A stretch of DNA of 44,256 bases from Dyella marensis (GTDB lineage: Bacteria > Pseudomonadota > Gammaproteobacteria > Xanthomonadales > Rhodanobacteraceae). Made by a program: the position numbers and the translations under genes. Shown one piece after another: positions 26,831 through 32,954 of the stretch; position 1 is the first letter of the stretch; every line of letters begins with the position of its first letter. The notes below the pieces were generated by a model, which searched no databases, was not told the DNA's origin, and worked only from the letters and a program-made list of their open reading frames with translations. Where the stretch lies: the NCBI RefSeq assembly GCF_900112865.1, contig NZ_FONH01000026.1, positions 1 through 44,256 of the forward strand. Direction: 5' to 3'.

Positions 26831-26928
26831 GAGGAAGGCTCCTGGTTGTTGAGATCGCGGGGATTCAACACTTCGTCTCGTTACGTGGGTGTCACCGGGG
26901 TCGAGTCCTAAAGTTTCAGTTGCACCTG

Positions 26929-26958
26929 TTGACTGCGGTGCAGCATGGCCCGTATGGT
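26929..26958 (+). promoter_or_regulatory. Threonine operon promoter
   Basis: The -35 box TTGACT (26929-26934) and -10 box TATGGT (26953-26958) are 18 bases apart. The start of transcription is predicted at 26964-26966, at or within two bases of the thrL ATG. The same architecture recurs at 31059-31088. Confidence 0.7.
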
Positions 26959-26965
26959 CGATCCC

Positions 26966-27115
26966 ATGTCGCCGCTTCCTGCCTCCATCCGCATGCTTTC
27001 CAGCCCGGTCCACGCCGGGCGCATGCCGTTGGCCGGCGCCATCGCTTCCTCCGCCACGATTATTACCACCGGTACCGGTACCACCGGCCACGGGTGGGTG
27101 TCCGCGCGCGAGTAG
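26966..27115 (+). CDS. thrL: Threonine operon leader peptide
   Basis: A 49-residue frame holds a Thr/Ile run at residues 31-40 (TIITTGTGTT), the pattern expected where both threonine and isoleucine end products are sensed. Ribosome stalling at these codons would control a downstream hairpin. It lies 96 bases before the homoserine dehydrogenase start. I chose the ATG at 26966 because it is 7 bases after the -10 box and shares the sequence CATGTCGC with the ilv leader start. It has no ribosome binding site and is probably translated from a leaderless message. Internal ATGs at 26993 and 27023 are alternatives, also without clear ribosome binding sites. Confidence 0.75.
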   Translation: MSPLPASIRMLSSPVHAGRMPLAGAIASSATIITTGTGTTGHGWVSARE

Positions 27116-27162
27116 CTTCATCACACGCAACGGCCCCGCCCCTCGAAGAGGCGGGCCGGGCC
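27092..27162 (+). promoter_or_regulatory. Threonine attenuator: competing stems
   Basis: A GC-rich hairpin spans 27132-27162 (CCCG with CGGG, CCTC with GAGG, tip GAA). Upstream, GGGTGGG (27092-27098, near the end of thrL) can pair with CCCGCCC (27135-27141) with one G-U pair and would disrupt it. No T-tract follows the hairpin, so the termination mechanism may not be a standard intrinsic one. Confidence 0.55.
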
Positions 27163-27211
27163 ACTCCGAACCGCCAGCGAGAGACGGGGCTCCCAACTCA
27201 AGGAGACCTCT

Positions 27212-28360
27212 GTGAACGCCCTCGCCCCTCAACTCGAACATCCCAAACACCCCGTGCTTGTCCGGGCGCTGCCGACGACCACTCCACGCCGCCGCATGCT
27301 GGCCGTGGGTCTGATCGGCCCCGGTCGTGTCGGCAGCGCCCTGCTCACCCAACTGCGTGCGGCGCAGACGCGCCTTTCCGAATCCGGCCTGGAACTGAAG
27401 CTGTGCGGCGTGGCCGCCAGCAAGCGCATGTGGCTGGACTGCGACGATCCGGACCTCAACCGCCGCTGCGACCGCGCCCAGATCTGGCGCCCCGCCGACC
27501 TGCGCCAGTTCGCCCGCCACGTGCTTGGCGACGACGGCCGCCACGCCCTGCTGATCGACTGCAGCGCCAACGACGAGGTGGCCGCGCACTACGCCGGCTG
27601 GCTGGCCGAGGGCGTGCATGTGGTCACCCCGAACAAGCTCGCCGGCAGCGGCCCGCTGGAGCGCTGGCAGGCGATCCGCGCGGCCAGCCATGCCGGCGCG
27701 CGCTTCCGCTACGAAGCCACGGTCTGCGCCGGCCTGCCGGTAGTGCAGACGCTGCGCGACCTGCTCGACACCGGCGATGAGCTGCTCGCCGTCGACGGCA
27801 TGTTCTCCGGCACGCTGGCCTGGCTGTGCAACCGCCACGACGGCGGCCGGCCGTTCTCCGCGCTGGTGCGCGAGGCGCATGCGCTGGGCTATACGGAGCC
27901 CGATCCGCGCGACGACCTGTCCGGCCTGGACGTGGCGCGCAAGCTGGTGATCCTCGCCCGCGAAGCCGGCTGGGCGCTGTCGCTGGACGACGTGGACGTG
28001 CAGAGCCTGGTGCCCGCCGAACTGGCCGCGCTGGACGCCGACGCCTTCATGGCGCGCCTGGACGAACTGGACGCCCCGATGGCCGCCCAGCTGGCCATCG
28101 CCCGCGCCGAGGGCGGCGTGCTGCGCCACGTCGCCAGCCTGGACCGCGACGGCCGCGCCAGCGTGAAACTGGCCGTGCTGCCCGCCTCCCACCCCTTCGC
28201 GCACACGCGCCTGACCGACAACGTGGTGCAATTCACCACGCGCCGATACCACGATAATCCGCTGCTGGTGCAGGGACCGGGCGCCGGGCCGGAAGTGACG
28301 GCCGCGGGCGTGTTCGGCGACCTGCTGCGCATCGCCGAGTCGCTGGAGGCACGCGCATGA
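27212..28360 (+). CDS. Homoserine dehydrogenase (ThrA C-terminal type, without aspartokinase)
   Basis: The 382-residue enzyme reduces aspartate semialdehyde to homoserine. The Rossmann motif [10 protein letters not shown] is near residue 32. [13 protein letters not shown] and [15 protein letters not shown] follow, then [10 protein letters not shown]. It ends with [21 protein letters not shown]. These blocks match the C-terminal half of bifunctional ThrA/MetL rather than the ACT-containing stand-alone Hom. No aspartokinase domain precedes it: only about 30 unrelated residues lie before the Rossmann fold, and the leader region lies just upstream. The start is a GTG with AAGGAG six bases upstream. 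The stop overlaps the thrB ATG. Confidence 0.93.
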
Positions 28361-29349
28361 ACGCCCAGCTCGCTGCTCAGAATCCGGAACCGATGGCCCG
28401 CTCTCCCCAACGCGCTCTTTCCGCCCAGGCCCTCGCGCCGGCCAGTGTCGGCAACGTCGGCATCGGCTTCGACATCCTCGGCCACAGCGTGGCCGGCGCC
28501 GGCGACCGCGCCCGGGTGCGCCGCATCGACGAGCCCGTCGTGCGCATCGCCGCCATCGAAGGCTGCGTCGTCGACCTGCCGCTCGATCCCGCGCAGAACA
28601 CCGCCGGCATGGCGCTGATGGCCCTGCGCAAGGCGCTGGGGCTGCGCCATGGCTTCGAACTGGTGCTGCACAAGGGCATCGCGCTGGGTTCGGGCATGGG
28701 CGGTTCCGCGTCGTCCTGCGTGGCTGCCCTGGTGGCCGCCAATGCGCTGCTGGAACGTCCGCTGCCGATGGAGTCGCTGTACGGTTTCGCGCTCGAAGGC
28801 GAAGCCGTGGCCAGCGGCGGCCGCCACGGCGACAACGTGGGGCCGATGCTGCTCGGCGGCCTGGTGCTGGCCACGCGCGACCGCCTGGTGCGCGTGCCCG
28901 TGCCGGACGCCTGGCATTGCGCCCTGGTCCATCCGCACATGGTGCTGGAGACGCGCAAGGCGCGCGCCGCGCTGGCCGGCGCCTATCAGCTGGGCGAGTT
29001 CGTCGCGCAGAGCGCGAATCTTTCGCTCATGCTCGCCGGCTGCTGGCAGGGCGATGCCGGGCTGGTACGCGAAGGCTTGAACGACGTGCTGGTGGAACCG
29101 CGCCGCGCACCCTTGATCCCTGGCTTCGCGCGGGTGAAGCAGGCGGCGATGGACCATCGCGCGATGGGCGCGAGCATTTCCGGCGCCGGCCCCAGCGTGT
29201 TCGGCTGGTTCGAGCAGCGCGACGAAGCCAAGGCCGCCGCCGCCGCGATGGCCGCGGCCTTCGCCGAGGCGGGGCTGGACAGCGACACGCTGGTCTCGCC
29301 GATCGCCGGTCCCAGCGCCGCATTGATCGACGTGGAGCGCAAGGCATGA
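28357..29349 (+). CDS. thrB: Homoserine kinase, GHMP family
   Basis: The 330-residue enzyme phosphorylates homoserine. It shows [16 protein letters not shown] near residue 27, the ATP loop [19 protein letters not shown] near 112, and the C-terminal [12 protein letters not shown]. About 20 extra residues precede the usual N terminus; an internal ATG at codon 13 could be the true start. It overlaps the homoserine dehydrogenase gene upstream and thrC downstream by 4 bases each (ATGA), so the operon is tightly coupled. Confidence 0.95.
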
Positions 29350-30671
29350 GCGAACCCCTGCTCTATCACAGCACGCGTGGCGCCGCGCACGGCGCCGGCA
29401 TCGGCGAGGCGATCGCCGCCGGCCTCGCGCCGGACGGCGGCCTGTATGTGCCCGAGGCCCTGCCCAGCCGGCGCCCGGACGACTTCGACCCCGACGGCAC
29501 GCTCGCCGACACGGCGGCACGCCTGCTGCGCCCCTTCTTCGCCGGCCATGCGCTGGCCGCGGAACTGCCGGCGATCTGCGCCGAGGCCTTCTGCTTCGAC
29601 GCGCCGCTGCGGCCGCTGCCGCAGCACCCCGGCGCCGCGATGCTGGAGCTGTTCCATGGGCCCAGCGCGGCCTTCAAGGATTTCGGCGCGCGCTTCCTGG
29701 CCAGCTGCTTCCGCCGCCTGCGCAAGGCCGGCGAGGCGCCGCTAACCATCCTGGTCGCCACCTCCGGCGACACCGGCGCGGCGGTGGCGGCCGCATTTCA
29801 CCGGCAGCCCGGCGTGGAGGTGGTGATCCTCTATCCGGATGGATTGGTCTCGCCGCGCCAGGCGCACCAGCTCGGTTGTTTCGGCGACAACGTACGCGCC
29901 CTGCGCGTGGCCGGCCGCTTCGATGATTGCCAGCGCATGGTCAAGGCCGCGCTCAACGACACGGCGCTGCAGGCGCAGCGGCCGCTGTCCTCCGCCAACA
30001 GCATCAGCCTCGGCCGCCTGCTGCCGCAGATGGCGTACTACGCGCACGCTTCGCTGCGCTGGTGGCGCGAGCATCGCCGCCCGCTCAACTTCATCGTGCC
30101 CACCGGCAACCTGGGCAATGCATTGGCCGCCGTGTGGGTGCGCGAGATGGGGCTGCCGGTCGGCGCGATCGAGCTGGCCTGCAATGCCAACGAGACGCTG
30201 CCGGACTACTTCGCCGGCACGCCCTATGCGCCGCGCGCCGCGGTCGCCACGCTGGCCAACGCGATGGACGTCGGCGCACCGAGCAACTTCGAGCGCCTGC
30301 GCTGGACCTTTCCCTACGACGACGACCTGCGCGGCCAGCTCTCCTCGCACAGCGTCGACGACGACACCATCCGCGCCACGGTGCGCCGGCATGCGCTGGA
30401 GCACGGCGAAGTGTTCTGCCCGCACACGGCGACGGCGATGCACCGGCTCGACCTGCGCCAGGAAAAAGCGGACTGGGCCGTGGTGTCGACCGCGCATGCG
30501 GCGAAGTTCGAAAGCGTGGTCGAACCGCTGATCGGCCGCGGCGTCGCCGTGCCCCCGGCGCTGCAAGCGATGCTGGCGCGACCGGCCCAGGCCGAAGCGA
30601 TCGAGGCCAGCGACGACGCGCTCAAGCAGTGGCTGCTCCCGCAACCGGCTCACGTCCGTAGGTTGGGGTAA
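29346..30671 (+). CDS. thrC: Threonine synthase
   Basis: The 441-residue PLP enzyme converts O-phosphohomoserine to threonine. [13 protein letters not shown] holds the PLP-binding Lys at about 111. [15 protein letters not shown] and [13 protein letters not shown] follow, with [13 protein letters not shown] between them. The start overlaps thrB by 4 bases. The last residues (VRRLG) and the TAA stop are encoded by palindromic element E: a G-to-A change within that element, relative to the other copies, makes the stop. The natural C terminus has therefore probably been altered by the repeat. Confidence 0.95.
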
Positions 30672-30750
30672 GCCGCAGGCGAACCCCAACGAGCCTCTCC
30701 TTTAACCGTGAGGTCTGTTGGGGTTCGCCTTCGGCTCACCCCAACCTACG
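30657..30750. repeat. Palindromic GTAGGTTGGGGT element (E), overlapping the thrC end
   Basis: The arms at 30657-30690 and 30717-30750 (34 bases) pair with a few mismatches. The left arm has GGGGTAAGCCGCAGG where other copies have GGGGTGAGC, and the right arm has CCTTCGG. The left arm contains the last thrC codons and its stop. Confidence 0.9.
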
Positions 30751-31058
30751 TCGAGTCGGTTTTTTGTGCCCCGCCACATCCGTGTTTTGGCCCGGCAAAG
30801 CAGAGTCCGAATGGACCGTACGGCATGGCATGGTAGTGCGGATCGACCGTCGTACCAGTCCACGCAATCTACTGATGCGCGTCGACTTCCCTGCCGACCT
30901 TCGCACACGCCTGTAGGAATAGTCTGGATTTCAGCCATTTCCTCCATGTGTGCCGACATGCGCGGAATCGGCGCCGAATGGCGCTCTCATCCCATCCGGC
31001 CATCTGGACGTCCAAATGTGATCGAGTCAGTTTTTTTCGATCATTACACAAGAAACTG
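30751..31058. other. Unassigned spacer before the ilv/leu leader
   Basis: No convincing gene is visible in these 308 bases. The stretch is less GC-rich than its surroundings. It is bracketed by two near-identical segments, TCGAGTCGGTTTTTT at 30751 and TCGAGTCAGTTTTTTT at 31022. The second is followed by TCGAT, forming a small inverted pair with ATCGA at 31021. The first T-run may help end the thr transcript. Confidence 0.4.
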
Positions 31059-31088
31059 TTGACACGCCCTGACGAGCCCCGTTAGGGT
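31059..31088 (+). promoter_or_regulatory. Promoter of the leu/ilv cluster
   Basis: A perfect -35 box TTGACA (31059-31064) and a weak -10 box TAGGGT (31083-31088) are 18 bases apart. Transcription is predicted to start at 31094-31096, at the leader peptide ATG. CTG precedes TTGAC here and at the thr promoter. Confidence 0.65.
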
Positions 31089-31095
31089 CGATGAC

Positions 31096-31233
31096 ATGTC
31101 GCAACGCAACACCACCGCAAGCATCGCCGAAAGGACCCGCCCTCCAGCGGTTCCAGGCCTGCTGCGGCTGCGCGGCAACCTCCTTCTTGCCCTTGTACTC
31201 GTACTCCTTATTACCAACGGAGGTGCGGGCTGA
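31096..31233 (+). CDS. Branched-chain amino acid leader peptide
   Basis: A 45-residue frame holds a dense Leu/Val/Ile run at residues 29-39 (LLLALVLVLLI). It is followed by an antiterminator and a strong terminator before leuA. Ribosomes short of charged Leu, Val or Ile tRNA would stall here and let transcription continue into the cluster. The ATG lies 7 bases after the -10 box with no proper ribosome binding site, so leaderless translation is likely. TCGAT..CATGTCGC around the start is shared with the thr leader. Confidence 0.87.
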   Translation: MSQRNTTASIAERTRPPAVPGLLRLRGNLLLALVLVLLITNGGAG

Positions 31234-31289
31234 GGGCGTGTGTCCAGGTAAAGCAAAACTGACCTGAATACCCCAAAGAACCCCGCACC
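31222..31289 (+). promoter_or_regulatory. Antiterminator pairing of the leu/ilv attenuator
   Basis: GGTGCGGG at 31222-31229 is perfectly complementary to CCCGCACC at 31282-31289, which includes the left side of the terminator stem. The first segment covers the last codons of the leader peptide. A ribosome stalled at the Leu/Val run (31180-31212) would leave it free to pair, whereas a ribosome reaching the stop codon would mask it. Confidence 0.75.
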
Positions 31290-31311
31290 CGAACAGGATG
31301 CGGGGTTTTTT
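31279..31311 (+). terminator. Terminator of the leu/ilv attenuator
   Basis: AACCCCGCA pairs with TGCGGGGTT (9 bp) around an 11-base loop, followed by a run of T ending at 31311. It is 36 bases before the leuA start and 45 bases after the leader stop. Confidence 0.9.
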
Positions 31312-31346
31312 GTTGCCCTCGGCGCAGCGCCAGCAGCGGAGCCGAC

Positions 31347-32954
31347 ATGAATCACGAAACCCAGCACAGCAACGACAGCAGCGAGGACGGCGTAGTAGCC
31401 GACGACCGCGTGCGCATCTTCGACACCACCCTGCGCGACGGCGAACAGGCGCCAGGCTTCGGCATGGACCGCCGCGCCAAGCTGCGCATGGCGCACGCGC
31501 TCGAGGCGCTCGGCGTGGACGTGATGGAAGCGGGCTTTCCGCAGGCTTCGCCGGACGATTTCGCCGCCGTCGCCGACATCGCCAAGGCGGTTCGCCACTC
31601 CACCGTCTGCGCGCTGGCGCGCTGCCAGGCCGCCGACATCGACACCGCCGGCCGCGCGCTGGAAGCCGCGCAGCACTCGCGCATCCATGTGTTCCTGTCG
31701 ACCAGCCCGCTGCATCGCGAGCACAAGCTGGGCATGAGCAAGCAGCAGGTGATCGACACCGCCATCGCTGCCGTCGAGCGCGCCAGGGCGCTGTGCCACG
31801 AGGTCGAGTTCTCCGCCGAGGACGCCATGCGCACCGAGCCGGACTACCTGGCCGAAGTGTTCAGCGCGGCCATCGCCGCCGGCGCCACTACGGTCAACGC
31901 GCCGGACACGGTCGGCTACGTCACCCCCGCCGAAATCGCCGAACGCTTCGCCTACCTGCGCAAGCACGTGAAGGGCGCCGAGCGCGTGGTGTTCTCCTCG
32001 CACTGCCACGACGACCTGGGGATGGCCGTCGCCAACAGCCTGGCCGCGGTCAGCGCCGGCGCGCGGCAGATCGAATGCACCATCAACGGCATCGGCGAAC
32101 GCGCCGGCAACGCCTCGCTGGAAGAAGTGGTGATGGCGCTGCGCGTGCGCGGCCCCTACTTCGGCGTGGACTCGCGCATCGACGCGCGCCGCCTGGTGCA
32201 GACCTCGCGCCTGCTGACCCAGCTGACCGGCCAGGCCGTGCCGCGCAATAAGGCCATCGTCGGCGACAACGCTTTCGCGCACGAGTCGGGCATTCACCAG
32301 CACGGCATGCTCAAGCACCGCGGCACCTACGAAATCATGCGTCCGCAGGACGTCGGCATGGGCGAGACCAAGCTGGTGCTGGGCAAGCATTCCGGCCGCC
32401 ACGCGCTGCGCTCGCGCCTGCAGGCGCTGGGCCACACGCCCGAAGAAGCCGCGATGGACGACATCTTCGCGCGCTTCAAGGCGCTGGCCGACAAGAAACG
32501 CGAAATCCACGACGAAGACCTGGAAGCGCTGGCGCTGGGCCAGGATCCGGACGCTGCCGGCCCCTGGCGGATCGTGCAGTTGAACAGTTCCTCGCACCTG
32601 GGCGGCAGCGCCTCCGCCTCGGTGCGGCTGGCCCACGACGATGGCCGCGAGATCGGCGAAGCCGCCATCGGCGACGGTCCCGTGGACGCGGTCCTGCGCG
32701 CGATGGAACGCGCCACCGGCACCGACCTGGAGCTGACCCAGTTCCAGGTGCGCGCCGTCAGCGAAGGCGGCGACGCCCAGGGCCAGGCCCAGCTCACCGC
32801 GCGCCACGCCGCGCGCAACTGGCGCGGCAACGGCGTCAGCACCGACATCGTCGAGGCCACCGCGCTGGCCGCGCTTTCCATCGTCAACCGCATCGAGCGG
32901 CAGGCCGCCCCGTCCGCCGCCGCGCAACCGCAAGTCCAAGGAGCCACCGCATGA
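31347..32954 (+). CDS. leuA: 2-isopropylmalate synthase
   Basis: The 535-residue enzyme condenses 2-oxoisovalerate with acetyl-CoA, the first leucine-specific step. [15 protein letters not shown] near residue 23 and [14 protein letters not shown] carry the metal-site residues of the HMGL-type barrel. [33 protein letters not shown] and [13 protein letters not shown] follow. The C-terminal regulatory domain, from about residue 400, is the usual leucine-feedback region. CGGAG lies before the ATG. The N terminus has about 15 extra polar residues. The stop overlaps ilvE by 4 bases. Confidence 0.96.

Follow-up and report, generated by a model that had tools for sequence, protein, structure and literature searches.

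The locus and its two leader peptides

The stretch considered here (the window) comprises 44,256 nucleotides (nt) of the Dyella marensis genome, positions 1 to 44,256 of the forward strand of contig NZ_FONH01000026.1 (RefSeq assembly GCF_900112865.1), and it carries two sets of amino acid biosynthetic genes: homoserine dehydrogenase (27212), thrB (28357) and thrC (29346), in that order, and, further along, leuA (31347) with ilvE, leuB and ilvD behind it. Each set is preceded by a short open reading frame (ORF) containing a run of matching regulatory codons, Thr/Ile in the ORF that opens at 26966 before the thr genes and Leu/Val/Ile in the one that opens at 31096 before the leu/ilv operon. The present account is concerned with how translation of these two leader peptides begins, and with what each of them goes on to control.

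Both ORFs start with ATG, and in both this ATG lies 7 bases past a -10 box that is itself separated by an 18 nt spacer from a -35 box (Table 1), which bears out the proposal, made in an earlier note on this DNA, that the two leaders have a promoter-start module in common. With this geometry a promoter of the sigma-70 type would put the start of transcription at the A of the ATG, in which case the ribosome is predicted to have to load on a 5' AUG with neither a 5' untranslated region (UTR) nor a Shine-Dalgarno (SD) site to help it. On the strength of the comparative evidence set out below, it is probable that the thr and leu leader peptides are attenuator sensors translated from leaderless mRNA.

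Table 1 Features of the thr and leu/ilv regions of the window (positions are those of the window; aa, amino acids).
Feature	Position	Strand	Remarks
thr promoter	26929..26958	+	TTGACT -35 (26929-26934), spacer 18 nt, TATGGT -10 (26953-26958), then 7 nt CGATCCC to ATG 26966; layout kept in relatives
thr leader peptide ORF, predicted leaderless	26966..27115	+	MSPLPASIRMLSSPVHAGRMPLAGAIASSATIITTGTGTTGHGWVSARE, 49 aa, stop 27113; Thr/Ile run ATIITTGTGTT; upstream without SD core
thr region 2, GGGTGGG (GWV codons)	27092..27098	+	Complements CCCGCCC of region 3; helix 2:3 arm-swap 0/5000
thr hairpin 3:4 (CGGCCCCGCCCCTC / GAGGCGGGCCG)	27131..27158	+	Without U-tract directly behind; arm-swap 0/5000, arms taken from own folds
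thr hairpin 5:6 (CGGGGCTCC ... GGAGACC)	27184..27208	+	Covers homoserine dehydrogenase SD; own arms beat swapped arms
Homoserine dehydrogenase, first thr structural gene	27212..28360	+	Start GTG; SD AAGGAGA at 27200-27206
leu promoter	31059..31088	+	TTGACA -35 (31059-31064), spacer 18 nt, TAGGGT -10 (31083-31088), then 7 nt CGATGAC to ATG 31096; conserved
leu/ilv leader peptide ORF, predicted leaderless	31096..31233	+	MSQRNTTASIAERTRPPAVPGLLRLRGNLLLALVLVLLITNGGAG, 45 aa, stop 31231; LLLALVLVLLIT run
leu antiterminator strand GGTGCGGG at leader ORF end	31222..31229	+	Complements terminator CCCGCACC; both exact strings in 47/57 loci
leu intrinsic terminator CCCCGCACCCGAACAGGATGCGGGG + T6	31281..31311	+	Seen in sequence and fold
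leuA, 2-isopropylmalate synthase	31347..32954	+	

Conservation of the promoter-to-start distance

Searches of 147 genomes of the family gave matches to LeuA in 126 and to homoserine dehydrogenase in 143, and 50 loci were compared for each of thr and leu, 30 of them (the own genome among these) coming from the search and 20 being picked for divergence. At 48 of the 50 thr loci and 49 of the 50 leu loci an in-frame ATG is preceded by the string TTGAC at a distance of 35-39 nt, and on inspection the three misses also carry the module: in one (L052) the leader has what looks like a frameshift after the run begins, another (L078) starts with GTG, and the third (L032) falls outside the detection rule. 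That this distance was not forced by the search is apparent from the fact that, when anything from 15 to 60 nt was allowed over all loci, 35-39 nt still held for 61 of the 82 ATG/TTGAC pairs at thr and for 57 of the 62 at leu. Among the family matches the distance averages 36.7 nt for thr (standard deviation 0.6) and 36.9 nt for leu (standard deviation 0.4), and it stays fixed while the length of the thr leader varies from 22 to 53 aa; with a 5'-terminal AUG one would expect just such a start codon, bound to the promoter and independent of whatever follows in the leader.

The -10 box behaves similarly, in that a TAnnnT hexamer ends 6-8 nt before the ATG at 41 of the 48 thr loci and at all 49 leu loci, the T, A and T of positions 1, 2 and 6 each occurring at fixed offsets in 45 of the 49 leu loci. 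The base immediately before the ATG (-1) is C or T in every one of the 97 family leaders, a pyrimidine followed by A being a common context at transcription starts. A further scan, covering 55 of 80 loci, found the module in 23 of them, including all 18 of L159-L176 (Dyella, Rhodanobacter, Luteibacter and Tahibacter among them), and the four Lysobacter loci had no module within the stretch examined. One genome (G012, contig 2) has tandem copies of homoserine dehydrogenase, at 240233-241318 and 241974-243059, with equal scores.

When a single rule was used to look for SD cores (GGAG, GAGG or AGGA at -16 to -5), none was found in any of the 118 leaders of all families, while by the identical rule a core was present in all six of the structural genes checked in the window. 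Taken together, the fixed distance, the missing SD cores and the pyrimidine before the A lend support to the leaderless start that had been proposed from the two window leaders, and the conservation across the family, nearly exact as regards the distance, likewise agrees with the earlier note, which had put it forward as a test.

The module in the rest of the genome

Within the whole 5.0-Mb genome the full pattern TTGACN{17,20}TANNNTN{5,8}ATG has four matches (none in a reversed control), and the thr and leu leaders are two of these. The other two (L003 and L004, on contigs 25 and 36) open ORFs that, read by eye, we take to be TetR-like and MarR-like regulators, and they are possibly leaderless regulator mRNAs. 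If the -10 box is dropped, the pattern TTGACAN{30,32}ATG (outside which thr falls, its box being TTGACT) has 16 matches against 15 in the reversed control, so that the spacing of -35 box and ATG is not by itself enriched in this genome; no ORF among these matches apart from the leu leader opens with a codon run. The suggestion that further leader peptides might be found by means of the module thus came to nothing here, as the pattern searches over the whole genome gave none beyond thr and leu. Similarly, the stretch examined upstream of hisG (L158) showed no leader with His codons; a small ORF that presumably resembles a TrpR/YerC-type repressor lies before this gene.

Some other observations on the window may be added here. 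The spacer of the thr promoter (26935-26948) is kept in many relatives (L041-L056, L061) as YGCRGYGCARCA, with the palindrome-like TGCAGTGCA, and may represent a regulator site; the leu spacer has no comparable conservation. Between thrC and the leu promoter (30658-30755) there is a long inverted repeat (GTAGGTTGGGGT ... ACCCCAACCTAC), which looks like a repeated intergenic element or a terminator. Rfam families gave no match at gathering score anywhere in the window.

The leu/ilv branch

Downstream of the leader stop the leu/ilv region has the appearance of a classical transcription attenuator. A T-rich stretch lies within 120 nt past the stop at 56 of 57 leu loci, and in the window the terminator consists of a GC hairpin followed by T6; a scan for consensus terminators reported none, though this one is plain both in the sequence and in the fold. 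If the ribosome were to stall in the Leu/Val/Ile run, GGTGCGGG would be left free to pair with CCCGCACC, thereby blocking the U-tract terminator, while a ribosome that had reached the stop codon would cover GGTGCGGG, and the terminator would then form. The complementarity and the terminator can be seen in the sequence, and we infer the switching between them: folds of the stalled states still yielded the terminator, so for the switch one must look instead to the established logic of attenuation. In the window fold the terminator is also enclosed by a further pairing (31231-31325), between GCTGAGGGCG around the leader stop and TGCCCTCGGC behind the terminator.

The thr branch

The thr side is rather different. 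A T-rich 8 nt window occurs between leader stop and start codon at only three of 61 thr loci, and at none of these three does it lie directly behind the hairpin. What is found instead is a hairpin over the start of the first structural gene, the SD core of homoserine dehydrogenase being paired at 3-4 of its 4 bases in 48 of the 61 local folds. An alignment of this hairpin made with MAFFT was poor, and alifold returned no structure from it, for which reason arm-swap tests were used, in which each arm is paired with its own partner or with that of another species. The SD hairpin passes clearly, with own partners better than those of other species; no permutation in 20000 did as well for all 61 loci, and 16 in 20000 when only the 25 distinct arms were kept.

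Applied to the individual helices of the region, such tests gave 0/5000 permutations for each of 2:3, 3:5 and 5:6, and also for 3:4, although this last result is partly circular since here the arms had been picked out of the fold of the sequence concerned. Helix 2:5 is weak (215/5000) and 3:6 is not supported (1302/5000). Helix 4:5 was considered as the partner that might free the SD, and was set aside as it has no covariation (1470/5000). Release of the SD on stalling was also looked for by equilibrium folding and was not seen, accessibility being higher in the stalled state at just 27 of the 61 loci.

The new point to emerge from comparing the two branches is the contrast between a classic terminator for leu and, for thr, a covarying SD hairpin without a U-tract, and this suggests translational control of the thr genes. 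Since the thr hairpin is without a U-tract and a covarying hairpin takes in the SD of the first gene, the reading that fits the sequences best is that the thr leader most likely governs homoserine dehydrogenase at the level of translation. It could also be that the thr attenuator works through transcription termination (using Rho, or a hairpin without U residues) and that the SD hairpin is secondary. This is a rather doubtful proposition, albeit one to be taken seriously: regions 2, 3 and 4 are laid out as classical alternative hairpins, and the folds do not release the SD on stalling, while it has to contend with the success of the SD hairpin in the arm-swap test and with the want of a T-rich tract directly behind the hairpin at all 61 thr loci, as against the 56 of 57 leu loci that have one after the leader stop.

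Occurrence outside the family

For other families of the order 20 regions of each kind were examined, and a leader was found at the right distance in 13 of those for thr and 8 of those for leu, with TTGAC and ATG still 35-39 nt apart in these matches despite a divergent -10 box, and with C or T at base -1 in 19 of the 21 leaders. Further afield, 60 leuA loci, mostly from outside the family, were surveyed by looser rules, under which candidates were defined only by codon run and terminator. This gave 14 candidate branched-chain leaders, none of them with an SD core; seven have a box with at most one mismatch to TTGACA at 36-39 nt from the ATG (30-60 nt having been allowed) and the other seven are without one. 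The records of the seven box-bearing candidates are titled Chromatiales, Woeseiaceae, Proteobacteria and, in two cases, Planctomycetes; in the latter two (L218 and L219) the candidate Leu leader before leuA has its box, TTGACC, at 36 nt from the ATG.

It may be, and we would put this forward only tentatively as somewhat short of an even chance, that amino acid attenuators across this gammaproteobacterial order and beyond use leaderless initiation as a standing design, with one and the same front end driving termination for leu and SD masking for thr. Attenuation depends on a ribosome keeping close to RNA polymerase, and doing so from the first codons onwards. An AUG tied to the first transcribed base would remove the 5' UTR, and the pioneer ribosome would then trail the polymerase with fixed timing.

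Weighing the alternatives

A number of results tell against the scheme described above, and these are best considered together. The hexamer in the -10 position is G-rich, with G at position 4 in 46 of 49 leu loci, and AGG forms part of it at 31 of the 49 leu loci and 14 of the 41 thr loci. When scored for duplex formation with the 16S tail, leaders and structural genes are poorly distinguished (-7.6 for thr and -6.2 for leu in the window, its six genes ranging from -5.6 to -9.3). The TAnnnT box is missing from 7 of the 48 family thr loci and, at 6-8 nt, from all 21 module matches in other families (where the box is, for example, TCCTCT or TTTTCT), so that in these 7 and 21 loci the promoter has to be recognised by its -35 box and spacing alone. 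In the other families no module-bearing leader came from 7 of the 20 regions examined for thr and 12 of the 20 for leu; in these the attenuator may be absent, the leader may lie elsewhere in the operon, or it may have fallen below the thresholds. At the level of the class the strict leu module was present in one of 274 genomes, namely the own one. As to the switches, there are the stalled-state folds already mentioned for both branches, and it must be remembered that the permutation tests ignore phylogeny and relatedness.

The first of these points could be turned into an explanation of its own, according to which transcription begins further upstream, the leaders are ordinary leadered ones, and the AGG of TAGGGT or TAAGGT acts as a weak SD. 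The AGG and position 4 counts are what one would hope to see in that case, yet AGG is absent from 18 of the 49 leu hexamers and 27 of the 41 thr hexamers (TACGTT, TATGGT and TAATGT all occur), the T, A and T of positions 1, 2 and 6 are each held in 45 of the 49 leu loci, and a GGAG, GAGG or AGGA core is wanting in all 118 leaders; since a weak SD would, moreover, explain neither the constant spacing from TTGAC nor the pyrimidine at -1, we consider it unlikely. One might also ask whether the true start is an in-frame ATG further downstream with its own means of initiation, the promoter-near ATG being incidental, since several of the thr leaders do hold extra in-frame ATGs. What the leaders share, however, is the ATG that keeps a fixed distance to TTGAC, and 27 of the 29 leu leaders examined for this point have a single ATG, making a downstream start very improbable.

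There remains the question of how two leaders in one genome came to look alike, and here the possibility that the start of one was recently copied onto the other can be examined directly in the 31 genomes with both leaders. It is true that both window leaders open with ATGTCGC. Upstream of the ATG, however, identity between thr and leu is 0.359 within genomes and 0.369 between them (3777 of 5000 permutations reach the observed value), while for codons 2-8 there is a small excess, 0.412 within against 0.386 between genomes (64 of 5000 permutations). An outlier is G261, in which codons 2-8 are 76% identical between the two leaders (L094 and L127), the peptides beginning almost identically with MTHRSN and MTQRSN; a local exchange is possible in this genome. 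As a general account, recent copying has very little probability, in keeping with the earlier view that a recent duplication of the whole leader is unlikely, and the comparison supports a functional module; the simplest reading of the sequences is that one promoter-start layout would have been kept up independently at the two leaders.

If leaderless translation of the two leaders is correct, the sensor relies on initiation at a 5' AUG and not on SD recruitment, from which it would follow that any factor favouring leaderless initiation should shift the control of the amino acid operons. A practical consequence is that gene finders that demand an SD can miss such leader peptides, for which a more suitable search rule would be TTGAC approximately 37 nt upstream of an ATG, followed by a codon run.

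Comparison with known systems

The enterobacterial leaders thrL, leuL and ilvL are translated from an SD site behind a 5' UTR and combine a run of control codons with alternative hairpins. The leu branch described here has the terminator logic of these attenuators, and the thr branch is without their U-tract. In the control of an SD by a leader that is proposed for it, the thr branch can be likened to translational attenuators of the ermC type, where drug-induced stalling in the leader governs exposure of the SD by way of alternative helices, with the difference that the inducer of ermC is a drug and not an amino acid.

In the earlier note leaderless initiation had been set against classical attenuation leaders translated from SD sites. 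This contrast was too strong, as leaderless attenuator leaders have already been published. One is trpL (rnTrpL) of Sinorhizobium meliloti, an attenuator leader peptide for which the 5' end of the transcript is reported to be the ATG (PMC7298713), just as is predicted here; it differs in responding to Trp and in being alphaproteobacterial. In Streptomyces lividans leuL, ilvL, trpL, thrL and metL are leaderless leaders (PMC8079986), among which are ones with Leu, branched-chain and Thr codons like the present leaders, and some without a typical terminator; these are actinobacterial, have 12-29 aa, and include a thrL that lies before thrS and not before a thr biosynthetic operon. The polycysteine leaderless upstream ORFs of mycobacteria, which govern downstream genes by attenuation (mentioned in the review PMC9031893 and cited in PMC13236596), are again short leaderless ORFs, differing in their amino acid (cysteine) and host. 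The available part of a review of his genes in C. glutamicum (PMC3896937) has no leaderless leader peptide, and for Xanthomonas and its relatives a literature search that covered few subscription papers gave neither a description of a leaderless attenuator leader nor a published start-site map that settles these 5' ends. Leaderless attenuator leaders are thus, as a kind, already known, and the family-wide version described here, with its translational-looking thr branch, is a variant of them.

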